DNA of 64,000 nucleotides from Saccharomycopsis phalli (taxonomy: Eukaryota; Ascomycota; Saccharomycetes; Ascoideales; Saccharomycopsidaceae). The notes beneath the pieces are model-generated. The model saw only the letters and a list, made by a program, of their open reading frames with translations. It did no database searches and was not told the origin of the DNA. The stretch is from positions 496,001-560,000 of the forward strand of contig CP073216.1 in the NCBI GenBank assembly GCA_020342235.1. The letters run 5' to 3'. This document shows, piece by piece, positions 41,753 through 52,117 of this stretch. The position numbers and the translations under genes are program-made. How positions within the stretch are numbered: position 1 is the stretch's first letter; each line of letters opens with the position of its first letter.

Positions 41753-43717
41753 ATGGCTGACGAGGATCTTACTGCGTCGCATTGGGGCGACGTTTTCACC
41801 GGCAGCAGAAATGAGTTTGGGTCGGTGATGCCTAATATCTTGCATGACGACGAGTTTGCTCCGCCCAACTTTGACGACATGTCTCATGAGTCTATCTCAG
41901 AGGAACAGCCAGAAGAACATCCAGAAGAACCGTTGCAAGAGCATGTGGAAGATGACGAGGAGGAGAGAGAAGTGAAAGGCTCTGTGGGGCAAAGCGAATC
42001 CGAGAAATTGGAAGCCAGATTCAAGTCCAGCAACTTGATTTCGTCCTTGACCAAGGATGTAGACGACTCGCCATTGAACACCACCGACATCCCGGAACCA
42101 ACAAAGGGCAACGCATTGTTTGAGAACCTGGTGCTATCTGACGGGAAATTCGATGCTTTTGGAGCAAGCGATGGCGCAGAACCCAAGATCGCCAAACCCA
42201 GTCACCCCATCAAAATGTACAAGGCTCCGCGTGTGAGACGGTATCGGCCGTCAGTCAGCCAAAAGTCAGAGGAGAGCTTGGGGCCATTGGGAGAGCTGCT
42301 CAAGACGAATTTGCAGGTAACTGAGAAGCGCGTTCTCACTCCTTCAGAACAGCTCGTCAACTCTGCCGAATCACCATTGTATGACCGAGAAGTGACCCAC
42401 AAGCAATTGACAGACAATCCAAACATCAGCCAGCAAATCGGTGAGTTCTTCCAGAACCGCGAGTCTCAGTCTTTGAAACCCACATTGAAGCGTCCCGAAC
42501 CAGACTCTAATTTGACCAAGTTTGACATCAATGTTGGAGACCCAACTAAAGTAGGCGACATCGCCTCCGCGCACATTGTCTACACAATCAGAACCGTGAC
42601 AGAAGAAGGCGTTTTGAGCCTGAGCGAAGTCGTAGTCACAAGACGGTACAAGGACTTCCGGTGGTTGTACCACCAATTACAGGCAAACAACCAGGGGTAC
42701 ATTATCCCGCCGCCGCCATTGAAGCAGGCTGTCGGGCGATTTAACGAACAATTCATCGAGAACCGTCGGTTCTCGCTCGAAAAGATGCTACAAAAGATTG
42801 GGCAGAACTCCGTGTTGCAAAAGGACCCCGATTTCATCATGTTCCTTCAGTCGGCAAACTTTGCCGCAGAGTCCAAGGAGCGTGAAAAGGTCACGGGCTC
42901 GGGGGCCTCAAACGGGGGTGCGGAGGACTTTGATCTCACCAGCGGAGGCTCAAGTGCCGGCTCGGGGTTTATGAGTGCTATTGGCGGAGCATTTTCGTCG
43001 TTTTCCAGCAAGGCAGTGGATACAGATGACTATTTCATAGAGCAGAAGGTCCACATTGAGGACCTAGATCTACAATTGAAGGCATTCTATAGAAACTTTG
43101 AATTAATTTGTCAGCAGAGAAACGAGTTGAGTGCCGTGACAGAGGAATTTGCAAACGCAGTGAACGCCTTGGCCGAGATCGAGACGTCAAAATCAACCAG
43201 CGTGTTGCTCGCCCAGTTTTCCCAGACGCAAATGAGAATAAAAGAGCTTCTAGAACGCCAGAGCATGCAAGATTTGATCACGTTGGGCTCGGTTCTCGAC
43301 GAATATATAAGACTCTTGGGCTCGATCCGCTCGGTGTTCCTGCAGCGCCACAAGGCACTTGCCATGAGCTCGAACGCCGACTACGAACTAAACAAGAAAC
43401 AGCAGTCGTTGGACAAGTACATCAAGAACCACAGAAACCAGGTCGACAAGATTGAGGCGTTGAAGCGCGAGGTGGCCACCTACGAGACCAAAAGCTTGAA
43501 TCTCAAGGTCAAGTTCGATGATATCTCGCAGATTATCAAAAAGGAGATGGCCCGGTTTGAGTTTGATAAGATTGACGACTTTAGAAACGCAATCGAGACG
43601 TTCTTGGAGAGCCTCATTGAAAGCCAAAAGGAGGCCATTGAGTTGTGGGAGACATTTTATGAGAGACAGAAGTTGGACGAGATCAACGACGTGAAACTAG
43701 ATGGCCAGGCACTCTAG
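41753..43717 (+). CDS. VPS5: Retromer sorting nexin Vps5
   Basis: About 654 residues from the ATG at 41753 (MADEDLTASHWGDVF); an in-frame ATG at 41714 would add 13 residues but lies in a TATATAT stretch close to the TMP1 stop. An acidic N-terminal third is followed by a PX domain (about 275-390: VGDPTKVGDIASAHIVYTI, RRYKDFRWLYHQLQ, IIPPPPLKQAVGRF) that binds PI3P, and a BAR domain to the end. Vps5 pairs with Vps17 in the retromer membrane-bending subcomplex for endosome-to-Golgi retrieval. Its stop shares a CTAG with that of RRN11. Confidence 0.92.
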   Translation: MADEDLTASHWGDVFTGSRNEFGSVMPNILHDDEFAPPNFDDMSHESISEEQPEEHPEEPLQEHVEDDEEEREVKGSVGQSESEKLEARFKSSNLISSLTKDVDDSPLNTTDIPEPTKGNALFENLVLSDGKFDAFGASDGAEPKIAKPSHPIKMYKAPRVRRYRPSVSQKSEESLGPLGELLKTNLQVTEKRVLTPSEQLVNSAESPLYDREVTHKQLTDNPNISQQIGEFFQNRESQSLKPTLKRPEPDSNLTKFDINVGDPTKVGDIASAHIVYTIRTVTEEGVLSLSEVVVTRRYKDFRWLYHQLQANNQGYIIPPPPLKQAVGRFNEQFIENRRFSLEKMLQKIGQNSVLQKDPDFIMFLQSANFAAESKEREKVTGSGASNGGAEDFDLTSGGSSAGSGFMSAIGGAFSSFSSKAVDTDDYFIEQKVHIEDLDLQLKAFYRNFELICQQRNELSAVTEEFANAVNALAEIETSKSTSVLLAQFSQTQMRIKELLERQSMQDLITLGSVLDEYIRLLGSIRSVFLQRHKALAMSSNADYELNKKQQSLDKYIKNHRNQVDKIEALKREVATYETKSLNLKVKFDDISQIIKKEMARFEFDKIDDFRNAIETFLESLIESQKEAIELWETFYERQKLDEINDVKLDGQAL

Positions 43718-44853
43718 CCAAACATATCGAAAGAGTACCGGTTTTGGGTAAAGAAGTCCTCTACATCTTCTGCTTCTTCTGGCTGCGGCTCGGTATCCGA
43801 CTCCTCGGGCTGTGGCTCAGTGTCCGATTCCACCTCAGACTGAGGATCATTATCTGACTGCTCGTCTGACTCAGACTCCAGATGCTGCATCGCTTCATCG
43901 TCCTCATCACTTTCGTCACTTGTGGCTTCCCGAATAGTGTCATTAATAAATATCTCTTTATACTGCTTTTCAATTCTTAACGTATCATAAACAAACAACG
44001 AATCCTTGGCGAGATCGCGTCTCAACTGTTGGAACTTTTCCTGTAGTTGGCCAAGCTTTTCTCTCTGCTCCTTGGTGCTGTAGTACCTCAACTGGTAAAG
44101 TACATGGATCATGTAAATGTACTTGTAGCTCGCAGACGAATTAAACGAATTTTGCAATACAAAGTCTTCAATTGTGTCTGTGATTTTTTTAAATCTTGTC
44201 TCCATTGACTCAACCGTGCAACTCAATCTCTCATACAAGGTTAGGCTCGTCACCCTGCTCCATAAATACGTACTGGCAATCGTAGTGTACATGTGCTGGT
44301 TATTTTTGGTCTGAACTGTGAATTTCACTAGCCACTGTAGAAACTTTTCAGCCTTTCTTTGTGATATCAACCCAAGCTGCTTGGCAGCCAGCGGTTCATC
44401 ACTTATTGGCTGACCAAGCGATACGGAAGGTGTATCTGGGAGCAAGCCGTCTCGTAGCTTTATCTCGTCCAACTTTGATAATATTTGTAAGCCAATTGGC
44501 CATAGAAGATCAAAGTCAATCGACTTTGGCTGAGAAATGTAAAGTTTGACATAGACAAAGAACACCTTGTATGCGCTATACCATTGGTTTCGTAATATGG
44601 ATGTGTGCAACAATCTATTTAGTATATTTAAGTGGGTCTTGTGAAACGAATCTGAAATGCTTCTATCTTTACTATCTCGACGACTCTTCTTGGGCAATAA
44701 TTCGTAGCCTCTGTGCAAAATTGCAAACTGCTTTCTGAGGCCAGTACTGCCAGTTGAAGGCTCGCAATTAGTTGCCTTGAACTCTGCTATCAATTTCCTA
44801 AGCTTGTACTTTCGGTTATTATCATAGCCAAACCTACTGGCATTCAGAAACAT
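43714..44853 (-). CDS. RRN11: Probable RNA polymerase I core factor subunit Rrn11
   Basis: A 379-residue helical protein. The block HLNILNRLLHTSILRNQWYSAYK with the following FDLLWPIGLQIL (about residues 70-125) resembles the TPR-like region I remember in yeast Rrn11 (LRTLNRLLHASVL...AYK). The C-terminus is very acidic with repeated ESDTEPQPE units. Rrn11 forms the core factor with Rrn6 and Rrn7 at the rDNA promoter. The protein is shorter than S. cerevisiae Rrn11 (507). The symbol is a best guess from that block. The gene overlaps VPS5 by the 4-bp CTAG that supplies both stops. Confidence 0.55.
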   Translation of the reverse strand: MFLNASRFGYDNNRKYKLRKLIAEFKATNCEPSTGSTGLRKQFAILHRGYELLPKKSRRDSKDRSISDSFHKTHLNILNRLLHTSILRNQWYSAYKVFFVYVKLYISQPKSIDFDLLWPIGLQILSKLDEIKLRDGLLPDTPSVSLGQPISDEPLAAKQLGLISQRKAEKFLQWLVKFTVQTKNNQHMYTTIASTYLWSRVTSLTLYERLSCTVESMETRFKKITDTIEDFVLQNSFNSSASYKYIYMIHVLYQLRYYSTKEQREKLGQLQEKFQQLRRDLAKDSLFVYDTLRIEKQYKEIFINDTIREATSDESDEDDEAMQHLESESDEQSDNDPQSEVESDTEPQPEESDTEPQPEEAEDVEDFFTQNRYSFDMFG

Positions 44854-44915
44854 TGTTTACCAATGTGCATTTCGTGCAGTACCTTATAGTTTTGGTGTTG
44901 GGGTGTCTGGAACTA

Positions 44916-44949
44916 ATAAACAAACAAACACACTTTGGCGTTTGTTTAC
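44916..44949. promoter_or_regulatory. Forkhead-like sites upstream of the SUMO-like-domain gene
   Basis: ATAAACA with following AACAAAC at 44916 on, and TGTTTAC (reverse GTAAACA) at 44943-44949, 7 bp before the ATG. Both match RTAAAYA. They lie in the 102-bp spacer shared with RRN11. Confidence 0.4.
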
Positions 44950-44955
44950 CTCGGC

Positions 44956-47943
44956 ATGGCTAAACCAGAAGATATCATATATCTCCAATTGAGATTCTAT
45001 GACCACGAGATTGATGGAGCAAATCCGCCAAAAAAGTATGAAAGAGAGGATTTTACCTATTTCAAAGTGAAATTGCTGGGTAAGTTTGCATCCTTGGTAA
45101 AGAGGTTTGCAACTATGAACAAACACGACCCCAACGATTTGACATTCTACAGCAACAAAAGGTTTCTTGTTCCCAACAAGACAATGAAAGAGCTAGGATT
45201 GAATGATAACGACGTGATTATAGTCAAGCGCGTCATGCCCATATACCTACAAATCCTTTCCAATGCTGGAATGTTAAACAAACTTCCGTTTGCAAATATC
45301 GGGAGCACACTAGTAAAAGTGGAGGACGACGCCACTATACATGATATCTACAATGTGTTTTTAGCACACTTACGTATTACTGACGCTGAGTCACAGCTAC
45401 GAACAGTCGACCAAAGAAGCATTGAGTTCTTCCGATACGATTCGTCGGAAAATGTCAGTATGTTAAAGAAAATATACAACTTGGGCCAAAGCGCAAGGGA
45501 ATTAAACATAGTTCCGGGCAGTGTCATTATAGTTATTGCGAACCCACAACAGATGGATTATCTTCATAGTAAATTGTTAGAGTTTACGAACATAAACAAG
45601 GTCCCGGGAACGGTTCGCGCAATTGCTGCTAACGATCATATCAAGGGAGTTGCACAAATGCAACAGGCACTTTCTGAAACCCGGTCTAGATTTTCAGAGA
45701 TACATCAGAAACTCTCTCAGTCTCAATTGGAAGTCTCGAGATTAAATGGCGTCATTGAAAAACTACGGCTGGCCAAGTCCGAGCCTGTACTGAACCAACA
45801 AGAATTATACAACAGAATGAAGCAACTAGAAAATCTCTTAGTCCAGAAGGTGACATTGCTTAATAGCGCTCAGACAGATAAAAGAAAGTTACTAGAGGAG
45901 ATGACCTTCTTTAAAAAGTTATCGGAGACTCAGAACTCCAACATGCAGGCGAAGGATATAGCAATCGAGAATTTAAAAGCCCAGGTAGTTGAATTGAAAC
46001 TGACTTTCGAGAAGGAAAGGCTAAATTTTAGGAAACATACTGATTATGTTGAAAGTATGTTGATGGACTTGAAGTTGAAGGTTAACGATAAGGCTATTAT
46101 GATTAAGGGCTTGGAAGATACAGCCAAAGCCACGGATTCACAGCACCGGAAATTTATTGAAAGCAACTACAGGGAAATACTGGCCTTTATGCAGAAGATC
46201 GCCGGTAAGGGACAGCAGGTGGCTTCTCAGTTAAATAAAATAATATCAGTGTATAATCCTGCAAACGAGAAGCTATTTGCTGAAATAAGCGTTGACCCAA
46301 TTGACTTTTTGTATCTCAATTTGATCATTGACTCAGCAGATGTCCCTGCTGAATTCAGCAAACTCAATCCGACCGAAGCCACAACCAGACCAATACCTGA
46401 AAAGCAATTTTTAAATAATGACGAAAAATTGCTAGCAATATTCAAATGTTTGCATGCAAGTAGTAAGAATTTAAATATTTATGAAATTTCTCAGAAGGTT
46501 GAAATACCAGCGGATGAAGTGGGTTTAATGCTTGCCACATATGGCCAAACGGTTGATTCTCAACTGAACGATCCATATTATATTTTGGAAAAAGTATGGA
46601 ACTCAACTGACAAATCACACTCATATCGTTATTCTGGGATTAATCCATCCCATATATCCTACCCTATCTCAGAAATTAATGGCGAAATTCCAAAATTGAA
46701 AAATAACTCTTTCTTACAGACACTTGAAACTGTACCCCAAATTGGAAAATTCTTTCATAATTTGGAGTTGGTGAAGTCCAATATTGAGGGCGTGACGATA
46801 CCACAAATCAATAACGCGTCCAAGAACTTGGTCAATGTGTTACGGGTAATTGATAAGTTCAGATCTAGAGAAATGGAACTAATTCAGCAAAAGGAAGAAC
46901 TAGTTGGTAAGTTTAAGGAAGAATTGAGGGTAGCTGCGGATAAAGTCAGTTTTGTCAATAGCTATCAAAACCGGTTAGATTCTTTATCGGCAGAACTTGG
47001 TCGATTGAAGGATGACAAATTGAATTTTGAAAATGATAATAGCGTTTTCAAGAGATTTGAAAGTTATTTAGAGGATAAGCCAGCTCCTCTTGCTCTTCCC
47101 TCGAGTTTAGTTGGAATTGTACAACCTTTGTCACATGAAGTACTGCTGGTTGAAGCACTACCTAATACCAAAGAAACACAAAATGGTGAAGACAAAGCGC
47201 AGCCCAGAGCTCGCGAAACACAGCTGAATAATATTGAAGATCAAACAAGGATGGATGAAAAGCCTCCTTTGGCAGAAACACCAAAGTCTGTTGCAATACC
47301 TGAGGTGGTGGAAATCACAGAACCAGTTGAGATAATACAGCACGACAAGGTAGTAACGTCTGTACAAGAATTATGTGATACAGATGGAGCATTGGAGATA
47401 GACTTGACGGATCCGCAAGATGGAGCAGAAAAAGAGAAGGAAAATCAGAATACACAGCCACCCCTGATGAAAAACAGACAAAGGGATGATGATGATGATG
47501 ATGATGATGAGACTGACGGCATACCTCTAGCAAAACGGCTAAAATGGTCGCAGTCACAAGAAGATGGGAAGGATAAAAATAATACGGAAGTAAGTGTTTT
47601 GGGTTCCCAGGCAAATAATACTATTGGAGTCGGAAGCAGTATAATAGGAAATGAAAACACGACCGCTGAGAACTCTTCCAAGAATTCAGACATGTATTTG
47701 AATATCAAAATTGAGCTCTCGGGTCATCTTCCTATTTTCTTCAAAATCAAAAAGCACACCAAACTCAAAAGAATATTAAAGTACTACGTGGAGAAGGCCT
47801 CAGCCAACCCGGATAGTAAACTCACTGAGAAAGAATTAGCAAACGTCAAGTTTTCTGTTGCAGGAATAAGCATCACAGATTATAATCAAAGACTACAGGA
47901 TTTGGGTCTCAAGGATTACTCTATAATAACTGCCTCTATTTAA
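44956..47943 (+). CDS. Coiled-coil protein with three SUMO/ubiquitin-like domains
   Basis: A 995-residue protein from the ATG at 44956 (the frame opens at a TTG). I do not recognise a named orthologue. Residues about 8-93 look like a SUMO-like fold (strands IIYLQLRFYDH and FTYFKVKLLG, then VPNKTMKELGLNDNDVIIVKR). Residues 94-196 look like a second. Residues 914-995 form a third that resembles Rad60/Esc2 SUMO-like domains (FFKIKKHTKLKRILKYYVEK, QDLGLKDYSIITASI). Coiled coils fill about 230-405 and 620-695, with a possible winged-helix segment near 485-535. Before the last domain are SIM-like EIDLTDPQD and VVEITEPVEI and a run of eight Asp. It may be a SUMO-pathway scaffold or a chromosome protein; that is inference. 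Confidence 0.75.
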   Translation: MAKPEDIIYLQLRFYDHEIDGANPPKKYEREDFTYFKVKLLGKFASLVKRFATMNKHDPNDLTFYSNKRFLVPNKTMKELGLNDNDVIIVKRVMPIYLQILSNAGMLNKLPFANIGSTLVKVEDDATIHDIYNVFLAHLRITDAESQLRTVDQRSIEFFRYDSSENVSMLKKIYNLGQSARELNIVPGSVIIVIANPQQMDYLHSKLLEFTNINKVPGTVRAIAANDHIKGVAQMQQALSETRSRFSEIHQKLSQSQLEVSRLNGVIEKLRLAKSEPVLNQQELYNRMKQLENLLVQKVTLLNSAQTDKRKLLEEMTFFKKLSETQNSNMQAKDIAIENLKAQVVELKLTFEKERLNFRKHTDYVESMLMDLKLKVNDKAIMIKGLEDTAKATDSQHRKFIESNYREILAFMQKIAGKGQQVASQLNKIISVYNPANEKLFAEISVDPIDFLYLNLIIDSADVPAEFSKLNPTEATTRPIPEKQFLNNDEKLLAIFKCLHASSKNLNIYEISQKVEIPADEVGLMLATYGQTVDSQLNDPYYILEKVWNSTDKSHSYRYSGINPSHISYPISEINGEIPKLKNNSFLQTLETVPQIGKFFHNLELVKSNIEGVTIPQINNASKNLVNVLRVIDKFRSREMELIQQKEELVGKFKEELRVAADKVSFVNSYQNRLDSLSAELGRLKDDKLNFENDNSVFKRFESYLEDKPAPLALPSSLVGIVQPLSHEVLLVEALPNTKETQNGEDKAQPRARETQLNNIEDQTRMDEKPPLAETPKSVAIPEVVEITEPVEIIQHDKVVTSVQELCDTDGALEIDLTDPQDGAEKEKENQNTQPPLMKNRQRDDDDDDDDETDGIPLAKRLKWSQSQEDGKDKNNTEVSVLGSQANNTIGVGSSIIGNENTTAENSSKNSDMYLNIKIELSGHLPIFFKIKKHTKLKRILKYYVEKASANPDSKLTEKELANVKFSVAGISITDYNQRLQDLGLKDYSIITASI

Positions 47944-50389: not shown

Positions 50390-52117
50390 CTATGCATGTT
50401 TGGAAAGCTGTTGGCTTGGTGGCTTTTGTGAGTACTGAAAAGCATAGTAGGCTAAAGTAGACAACGACGTCACAACAAACCACAACTCAAACAAATAGTC
50501 AAGATAGTATATGTTGAAGCTGAACAGGTCGAATAAGGTATCGATTATTTCAATCGAATTGGAAGAAAACATTGACCGAAGCATTATTGACGTTCCTATA
50601 ATGTAGACTGCCACCAATTGTGAAATGAGCAACTTCTCGCACGTTGACACCAATTTAAGACGGTCAATTTCTTCTAATATTAATGGAGGTTCATTTTCAG
50701 GTGATTCAAAAGAGATTTGCGGCTGCAATGGTTGAGATTGTGATGGCGAGTGCGGTTTATGCGTCACCAGACCAACTTGTAGCTGATTGGTGTTCGCGGG
50801 AGTCTTGCATCGTATTGGTGTTACGAGTAAATCTGGGTTGACTCTTCTAGAGACGGAATGAGAGTATGATCTTGTATGCGTTGCCGGCTCAGACTGGTAA
50901 GGATTTTCATTGACAACTAGTTTGTTCACACTGGTTGCTGTATTGGTACTCATTTTTGTGAATTTCACGGCCACTTTAAGTATATTATCAAAAGCATTCA
51001 AAACACCGGTGAAGCAGCTGATAAAGAAACATAACGCAATGACCAATTCAATATTGTTGAGCAAAACGAACTCCTCGCTAGAAGAATTAGAAAATAGGTA
51101 GTATTGAAGCATCTCTGATATTGTGGACTCCGATCTTCTGGTTAATAGCAGGGGCTCCAGAGAGTATCTATAAAGAAACACTGGTATTTTAACGAGAAAT
51201 ACCGAAAATATTCTATAGAAACAGTATCCCAAGATGACTCTCTTGACTATTCGATTGGCAGGCGAATTGGACTGTAGCTTTCCTTGTATCTTTGCAATAT
51301 TTGTCTTTAATATGGAAGAGTAGTTTTGAAAAGCATCAATCTGCGACTTTAACTCATTGACATCCTGATTTGAAAAAGTATTTAAACCCACATTCAAGTT
51401 GGAGAGACTTGCCTGCTTTTGTCTCAAAGACTCGTTGATGCTGGCATGGTTGCGATACAACAAGTTGAGGTTCTCATTTAAGACCGCAGTTTCGTATTCC
51501 TTTGTGAAAAAAAAGTCATGAACCGTGGAAATGGCATTAAACCCTGTAATGCAGCCCATTATAGAGATGCCGATCAAGGCGATGTTCACCACGTACCTAG
51601 AAACTATTGTCCCGTTATCTCCCACCGAAGGGAGTAATCTATGAACATTAGTGAAAGATATGAGCCAAAGCAACAAAAGCACGCCGGAGTACACATAGAC
51701 GGTGTTCTGGTCGTCCTGGAAATTGAAGAACAAATAAAAGTGGCTAGTCAAAAAGTAGATAATCACCATAGGAACTATTAGCACTACCATTAACACCACC
51801 AAATGCAAATTTAGCTTGAACCAGAACACATTGGTTTTGTACGAGAGAATACCAATCAACTGGAATAGGTAAATCTGCATCAATGACACTGAACTAGTCA
51901 TTGTGAGGTTAAATATAATGTTTAGCACATTCTGAACCTTGAAGGACTGGGGCTGGTCATTAATATGAAAATATTTTGGTAAATTCCTGGTAATCACCTC
52001 GGAAATGTAAATATATATCGTGATGAACAGAATAAAGCACACGACCAAGCTGAATAAATCAGCAATTATAGACTCAGTCATAGGAGCATTTGTATATTCA
52101 CCAGACATTACTTCCAT
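50390..52117 (-). CDS. GPHR/GPR89-like multispanning membrane protein
   Basis: A 575-residue protein with about nine hydrophobic segments: five in the first 200 residues, a luminal or cytosolic coiled loop (about 205-300, YETAVLNENLNLLYRNHASINESLRQKQASL), then two or three more, a Ser/Pro-rich insert (about 405-480), and a final pair. Layout and the GFNAISTVHDFFF and GYCFYRIFSVFL segments suggest the Golgi pH regulator / GPR89 / GTG family, anion-channel-like proteins of the Golgi and ER. To my knowledge S. cerevisiae has no obvious orthologue. The assignment rests on topology and short segments. Convergent with PAL1. Confidence 0.55.
   Translation of the reverse strand: MEVMSGEYTNAPMTESIIADLFSLVVCFILFITIYIYISEVITRNLPKYFHINDQPQSFKVQNVLNIIFNLTMTSSVSLMQIYLFQLIGILSYKTNVFWFKLNLHLVVLMVVLIVPMVIIYFLTSHFYLFFNFQDDQNTVYVYSGVLLLLWLISFTNVHRLLPSVGDNGTIVSRYVVNIALIGISIMGCITGFNAISTVHDFFFTKEYETAVLNENLNLLYRNHASINESLRQKQASLSNLNVGLNTFSNQDVNELKSQIDAFQNYSSILKTNIAKIQGKLQSNSPANRIVKRVILGYCFYRIFSVFLVKIPVFLYRYSLEPLLLTRRSESTISEMLQYYLFSNSSSEEFVLLNNIELVIALCFFISCFTGVLNAFDNILKVAVKFTKMSTNTATSVNKLVVNENPYQSEPATHTRSYSHSVSRRVNPDLLVTPIRCKTPANTNQLQVGLVTHKPHSPSQSQPLQPQISFESPENEPPLILEEIDRLKLVSTCEKLLISQLVAVYIIGTSIMLRSMFSSNSIEIIDTLFDLFSFNIYYLDYLFELWFVVTSLSTLAYYAFQYSQKPPSQQLSKHA

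Follow-up and report, generated by a model that had tools for sequence, protein, structure and literature searches.

A coiled-coil protein of Saccharomycopsis phalli with a SUMO-like domain at each end and a candidate non-conjugable SUMO mimic at its C-terminus

Introduction

What would a long coiled-coil protein do with a SUMO-like domain (SLD) at each of its ends? The question is raised by positions 44956-47943 of the window (the whole stretch of 64,000 nucleotides of Saccharomycopsis phalli DNA that was analyzed), where a sequence-only reading had picked out an unrecognized protein of this design. The contrast that makes the locus of interest is with the yeast SLD protein Esc2, which applies its SLDs to the SUMO E2 (PMC12687455). 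The explanation that we favor, with a probability of about one half, is that the 995-residue protein is a coiled-coil scaffold with a built-in, non-conjugable SUMO mimic that would recruit proteins bearing SUMO-interacting motifs (SIMs).

Results and Discussion

The open reading frame

The forward strand at 44956-47943 holds a single uninterrupted open reading frame (ORF) of 995 codons, and the protein that had been proposed from it can be regarded as the product of a real gene. A search of the 14.15-Mb, 8-contig genome returned a single match to this ORF, which is separated by 102 bp from a divergent RRN11-like gene. Its codon-bias score, a weak measure that was trained on the same 13 reference window genes with which the ORF is compared, was -0.027, those genes scoring 0.023 to 0.167; one other frame of the same stretch scored slightly higher (-0.012) and had 34 stops. 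The features discussed below are as follows.

44956..47943, + strand: whole ORF (P0002 when CTG is read as Ser), 995 aa, one match in the genome
44968..45231, + strand: SUMO-like domain 1 (residues 5-92; Pfam core 35-88), Rad60-SLD 32.0 bits, z 10.5 against the S. phalli Smt3
45235..45558, + strand: possible second ubiquitin-like segment (residues 94-201), unproven; hhalign and a low-confidence model with the order E E H E H E
45628..46155, + strand: coiled coil 1 (residues about 225-400), heptad periodicity, weak generic SMC-coil match
46408..46629, + strand: possible winged-helix domain (residues about 485-558), low-confidence model and Foldseek
46813..47055, + strand: coiled coil 2 (residues about 620-700), long helix in the model, heptads at 640-700
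47305..47334, + strand: SIM-like motif VVEITEPVEI (residues 784-793), present, at chance level
47395..47421, + strand: SIM-like motif EIDLTDPQD (residues 814-822), present, at chance level
47533..47544, + strand: basic patch KRLK (residues 860-863), possible nuclear signal, pattern only
47701..47934, + strand: C-terminal SUMO-like domain (residues 916-993), Rad60-SLD 26.9 bits, SIM groove apparently kept, Ubc9 face apparently lost, no Gly-Gly

The reading of CTG codons

When the Ssl2-like and Prp16-like genes of the window were aligned with their PDB homologues, none of nine CTG codons stood opposite Leu; the facing residues were Ser, Ala, Gly (twice), Gln, Asp, Pro, Val and Ile. By comparison, the other five Leu codons stood opposite Leu in 88 of the 127 cases counted, a tally that omits some alignment blocks. 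This difference indicates that CTG is decoded otherwise than as Leu in the S. phalli window genes, most probably as Ser, as in the CUG-Ser clade, and less probably as Ala. With CTG not Leu, the standard-code translations of other proteins in the window (1-64000) need correction.

ARAGORN assigned the anticodon CAG to none of 14 tRNA loci, and called Thr(tgt) for three tRNA genes (L025, L030 and L034) that are almost identical and have Ser-like ends. Read by eye, these three genes fit CAG as the anticodon, preceded by an unusual purine, together with a short intron. As genes readable with CAG, they weakly favor the assignment of CTG to Ser.

Reading CTG as Ser alters ten residues of the 995-residue protein, none of them in the SIM-like motifs or the C-terminal domain. 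One of the ten, residue 41, sits in the N-terminal SUMO-like domain, whose Rad60-SLD score was 30.1 bits under the standard code (residues 1-215) and 32.0 bits with CTG as Ser (residues 1-201). The standard-code protein (P0001) had no relatives in our collections of virus and prokaryote contigs.

SUMO-like domains at the two ends

Pfam searches of the CTG=Ser protein at E-values up to 10 found only one family that reached its cut-off, Rad60-SLD (PF11976; whole protein E 7.3e-12, 45.4 bits, in two stretches), most weak matches being removed by the HMMER filters. Both ends passed the curated cut-off of 23.8 bits, residues 35-88 with 32.0 bits and the C-terminal piece with 26.9 bits, as expected from the earlier proposal of SUMO-like domains at both ends. 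The same search bore on whether the protein might be a diverged member of a known family, for example an autophagy scaffold: no family besides Rad60-SLD was over its cut-off, the ATG11 domain (PF10377) was absent from the protein at E 10, and ATG11 is a gene elsewhere in the genome (C5:321316), so that an Atg11 identity was rejected. The genome also has a zf-MIZ gene.

Shuffle tests supported both assignments. Against the S. phalli Smt3, the N-terminal domain scored z 10.5 and the C-terminal domain z 15.1, with 0 of 1000 shuffles as good in each case, and the two domains resembled one another at z 4.0. In phmmer searches of the PDB, SUMO/Smt3 chains were on top for the C-terminus (best E 2.6e-5; Smt3 about 0.01), and SUMO-1 was reached only at E 0.11 for the N-terminal domain.

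We considered whether the N-terminal domains might instead be ubiquitin-type domains, as in Rad23 and Dsk2, docking the protein on the proteasome or Cdc48. Domain 1 does match the ubiquitin family weakly (18.4 bits, below the cut-off of 25.4), but the SUMO-like model fits it far better (32.0 bits), its shuffle z against ubiquitin was -1.1, and the Pfam listing of the protein contains no UBA domain, which together make such docking highly improbable.

The sequence-only reading had placed two SUMO/ubiquitin-like segments at the N-terminus. The first of these is the Rad60-SLD match at residues 35-88, but the second, at residues 94-201, had no Pfam match at E 10, only four unrelated matches in the PDB (E 0.44-1.1), and no likeness in shuffle tests to domain 1 (z 0.1) or to Smt3 (z -0.2). 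The closest approach was to Rub1 (z 3.4; 8 of 1000 shuffles as good), and hhalign gave P 0.067 and a probability of 0.8%, with strands in beta-grasp order. Structure prediction had been suggested as a check. AlphaFold2, run without relatives on the N-terminal region of the standard-code protein, returned a low-confidence model (mean pLDDT 42.3) in which residues 94-201 run strand, strand, helix, strand, helix, strand; nothing ubiquitin-like was among the best 50 matches listed by Foldseek for that model.

Groove and Ubc9 face of the C-terminal domain

To compare the SIM groove and the Ubc9-binding face among SLDs, SUMO1 residue numbers were placed on the S. phalli Smt3 at what we take to be the corresponding positions. 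The groove residues were those given in PMC12751080, and the residues that contact the Ubc9 back those in PMC12687455. Four SLDs were compared with the S. phalli Smt3 as the single reference, and the p values are uncorrected for multiple testing.

In the C-terminal SLD, 12 of 13 groove positions were similar to Smt3 and 9 of 13 identical, versus 31/60 similar and 13/60 identical outside the groove (Fisher p 0.006 and 0.0016, respectively), a conservation that is judged from one sequence against one reference. A laxer count, in which similarity to either Smt3 or SUMO1 sufficed, gave 12/13 for this domain and 6/13 each for ubiquitin, Dsk2 and Rub1. A bulky Tyr occupies groove position S50, and one loop of the domain exceeds that of Smt3 by 9 residues. 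By this residue pattern, the groove of the C-terminal SLD corresponds to the SIM groove of SUMO. The Ubc9-binding face presents the opposite picture, with one of five acids in the C-terminal SLD versus four of five in Smt3. The N-terminal SLD had neither pattern: 7/13 groove positions were similar and 4/13 identical (p 0.31 and 0.45), which indicates no special conservation of its groove, and two of the five acids were present on its Ubc9 face.

The chain terminates in ...IITASI, before any Gly-Gly, and for this reason the C-terminal SLD is predicted not to be conjugable. Similarly, since most of the acidic Ubc9 face appears to be lost, a role for this domain as a cofactor of the E2, of the kind that Esc2 has, would not be expected. 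Relative to Smt3, then, the C-terminal SLD is alike in its groove and differs in being fused within a longer chain, in lacking Gly-Gly, in having apparently lost the Ubc9 face and in its longer loop.

Other SLD genes in the genome

A Pfam profile search located 16 Rad60-SLD places in the genome. Based on their translations, these include Smt3 (L002), Rub1 (L011), polyubiquitin (C5:394303-395427), and Dsk2-like (L013), Rad23-like (L016) and Esc2/Rad60-like (L009) proteins. Smt3 being a separate gene, an identity of the 995-residue ORF as Smt3 was rejected. In Smt3 a likely intron separates ...HREQ from I-G-G-C-L-stop, so that this protein, unlike the 995-residue one, would gain its Gly-Gly beyond the intron; the putative intron (GTGAGT...ACTAACATTTTAG) is at L002 1250-1530 on the reverse strand. 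In another of the regions (L017; G000:C2:1032438), a 467-codon frame apparently has several ubiquitin-like repeats, one of which, at 23.8 bits, equals the Rad60-SLD cut-off.

The Esc2/Rad60-like protein (L009/P0004), so named from reading its translation, resembles Esc2/Rad60 in a VIDL motif, an acidic linker and a C-terminal SLD of 57.6 bits, the last and the only SLD that Pfam detects in it; an Esc2/Rad60 identity for the 995-residue ORF was rejected in its favor. Its SLD2 had 7/13 groove positions similar to Smt3, 1/13 identical, and four of the five Ubc9-face acids (the groove count of SLD1, which was misaligned, was left out). By these counts, the C-terminal SLD and the Esc2-like SLD2 represent opposite trade-offs between groove and Ubc9 face. 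The idea of a SUMO mimic, which the sequence-only reading had raised, is consistent with the similarity of the C-terminal groove to Smt3 and with the separateness of this gene from those of Smt3, the Esc2-like protein and ATG11.

These comparisons also bear on whether the protein belongs to, or derives from, the RENi (Rad60, Esc2, NIP45) family and acts by recruiting Ubc9. The likenesses are a C-terminal SLD of the same Pfam model, the absence of Gly-Gly, so that this SLD would be non-conjugable, and a long linker before it. However, in RENi proteins two SLDs follow one another at the C-terminus and coils are not conserved (PMC549199), whereas the 995-residue protein has one SLD per end, the coils and the possible winged helix lying in between. 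The SLDs of RENi proteins and Esc2 are likewise described as binding the back of the SUMO E2 (PMC12687455), whereas the last SLD here appears to keep the SIM groove and not the acidic Ubc9 face (1/5). Given also the apparently better Esc2/Rad60 candidate in the genome, even with its name taken from reading and only its last SLD found by Pfam, we regard membership of this family as quite improbable.

A second SLD protein without Gly-Gly, P0003 (L012:778-1797; G000:C8:418945-419964 +), has 340 residues and a C-terminal Rad60-SLD of 45.4 bits. By eye it has a coil-like start, followed by an acidic middle, a KKRKK patch and a short tail after the SLD. It is like the 995-residue protein in its coil-like start, acidic middle, basic patch and C-terminal SLD (z 7.2 to the C-terminal SLD), and differs in its length, its one SLD, the tail beyond that SLD and the three of five acids on its Ubc9 face. 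Its groove was 8/13 similar and 6/13 identical to that of Smt3. Pairwise comparison found no whole-length similarity between the two proteins.

UAF1 (WDR48), the partner of the deubiquitinase USP1, differs from the 995-residue protein in the rest of its architecture. Its SLD2 is described as binding the SIMs of FANCI and hELG1 (PMC4835495; SIM binding also PMC12687455) and is a precedent for the mechanism that we propose here. A literature search that covered few subscription papers found no description of a protein with this domain order. The Rad60-SLD itself is named in PMC2946365 and PMC10799480.

Coiled coils and the middle region

The long coiled coils that had been proposed between the end domains were confirmed by their periodicity: for residues 225-400, none of 2000 shuffles had heptads as strong, and a weaker periodicity was present at residues 640-700 (p 0.0115 by shuffles). 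Coiled coil 1 had a weak generic match to the SMC-coil family, far under that family's cut-off.

The region between the coils had no second match in the genome, and a PDB search with it returned only two matches, both insignificant. Residues 429-668, folded without relatives, gave a model of low confidence (mean pLDDT 41.6). Within it, residues about 485-558 form three helices followed by two strands (H-H-H-strand-strand), with block pLDDT values of 57-72 at the first two helices and below 50 at the wing. Foldseek returned 636 matches to the model at E<=10 and none at 0.001, the top match being the DNA-binding protein 1ku9 (E 1.8e-3). By manual count, 29 of the best 50 of these 636 matches were DNA-binding or transcription-regulator proteins, which we presume to be of winged-helix types; others among the best 50 were methyltransferases and proteasome and ribosome chains. 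AF1382 (3o3k) superposed on the model at 1.8 A over 74 columns, and many of the listed superpositions were poor (rmsd over 10 A). Based on this model, a winged helix between the coiled coils, near residues 485-558, is possible; the earlier reading did not include it.

Scaffolds of the spindle pole, the kinetochore and the chromosome axis typically combine long coils with domains at the ends. We considered whether the 995-residue protein descends from a known coiled-coil scaffold of this sort (spindle pole, kinetochore, synaptonemal or chromosome axis) as an orthologue that evolves fast and has diverged beyond recognition, with SLDs that are folded end caps and have no SIM role. Besides this general fit, only generic coil similarity was found for the protein, and a precedent in the CUG-Ser clade is Csa6, a lineage-restricted spindle pole protein of cell division with a central coiled coil (PMC9307598), a report in whose main text the word SUMO is absent. 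However, no family besides Rad60-SLD was over its cut-off and ATG11 is a separate gene. In addition, the C-terminal domain has kept its groove selectively, more than its other positions, which speaks for something beyond a mere cap. We regard this diverged-orthologue explanation as possible and somewhat doubtful.

SIM-like motifs

The two SIM-like strings noted earlier are present at residues 784 and 814, but when residues 700-905 were shuffled, 6.9% of the shuffles contained both motif types, and we have ruled the strings out as above-chance evidence. We considered a variant in which the motifs bind the protein's own C-terminal SLD, within or between molecules, to give an autoinhibited or self-polymerizing scaffold. 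Both motif types and the groove-bearing SLD do lie within about 210 residues of one another; against this stand the chance level of the motifs and the competition to be expected from free Smt3, and we consider such self-binding unlikely.

A candidate scaffold with a built-in SUMO mimic

In the explanation that we favor, a scaffold with a non-conjugable SUMO mimic, the C-terminal SLD would present a SUMO-type groove and recruit SIM-containing proteins, much as a permanently SUMOylated scaffold might. The coiled coils would probably dimerize or oligomerize the scaffold, so that each particle would carry several grooves, the possible central winged helix may dock DNA or a protein, and the scaffold may be nuclear. 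If this explanation is correct, nature would have separated two functions of SUMO in one SLD of a coiled-coil scaffold, with the SIM groove kept and the E2 face lost, and such a domain would offer a direct test of whether non-conjugated SUMO can organize SIM proteins in yeast.

A further extension, which we offer as speculation and think distinctly unlikely, is that the protein is a clade-restricted nuclear scaffold in which hard-wired SUMO replaces regulated SUMOylation. Its oligomers would then carry irremovable grooves together with SIMs of their own, SIM proteins or the scaffold itself would be assembled on DNA through the winged helix, and P0003 would be a smaller partner of like design.

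Neighboring genes

Pfam families matched by the window genes include Vps5, Rrn11, Pal1, DOCK and Ndc80. The string TTGTTTAC, which we take to be a forkhead-like motif, lies at 44942-44949, just upstream of the ATG of the 995-codon ORF, and another copy is at the start of RRN11 (44853-44860). The protein encoded at 50390-52117 (-) is a membrane protein of the GPHR/ABA-GPCR family (PF12430, Pfam), a family that to our knowledge is absent from S. cerevisiae. At their ends, the VPS5-like (+) and RRN11-like (-) ORFs have 4 bases in common (43714-43717).
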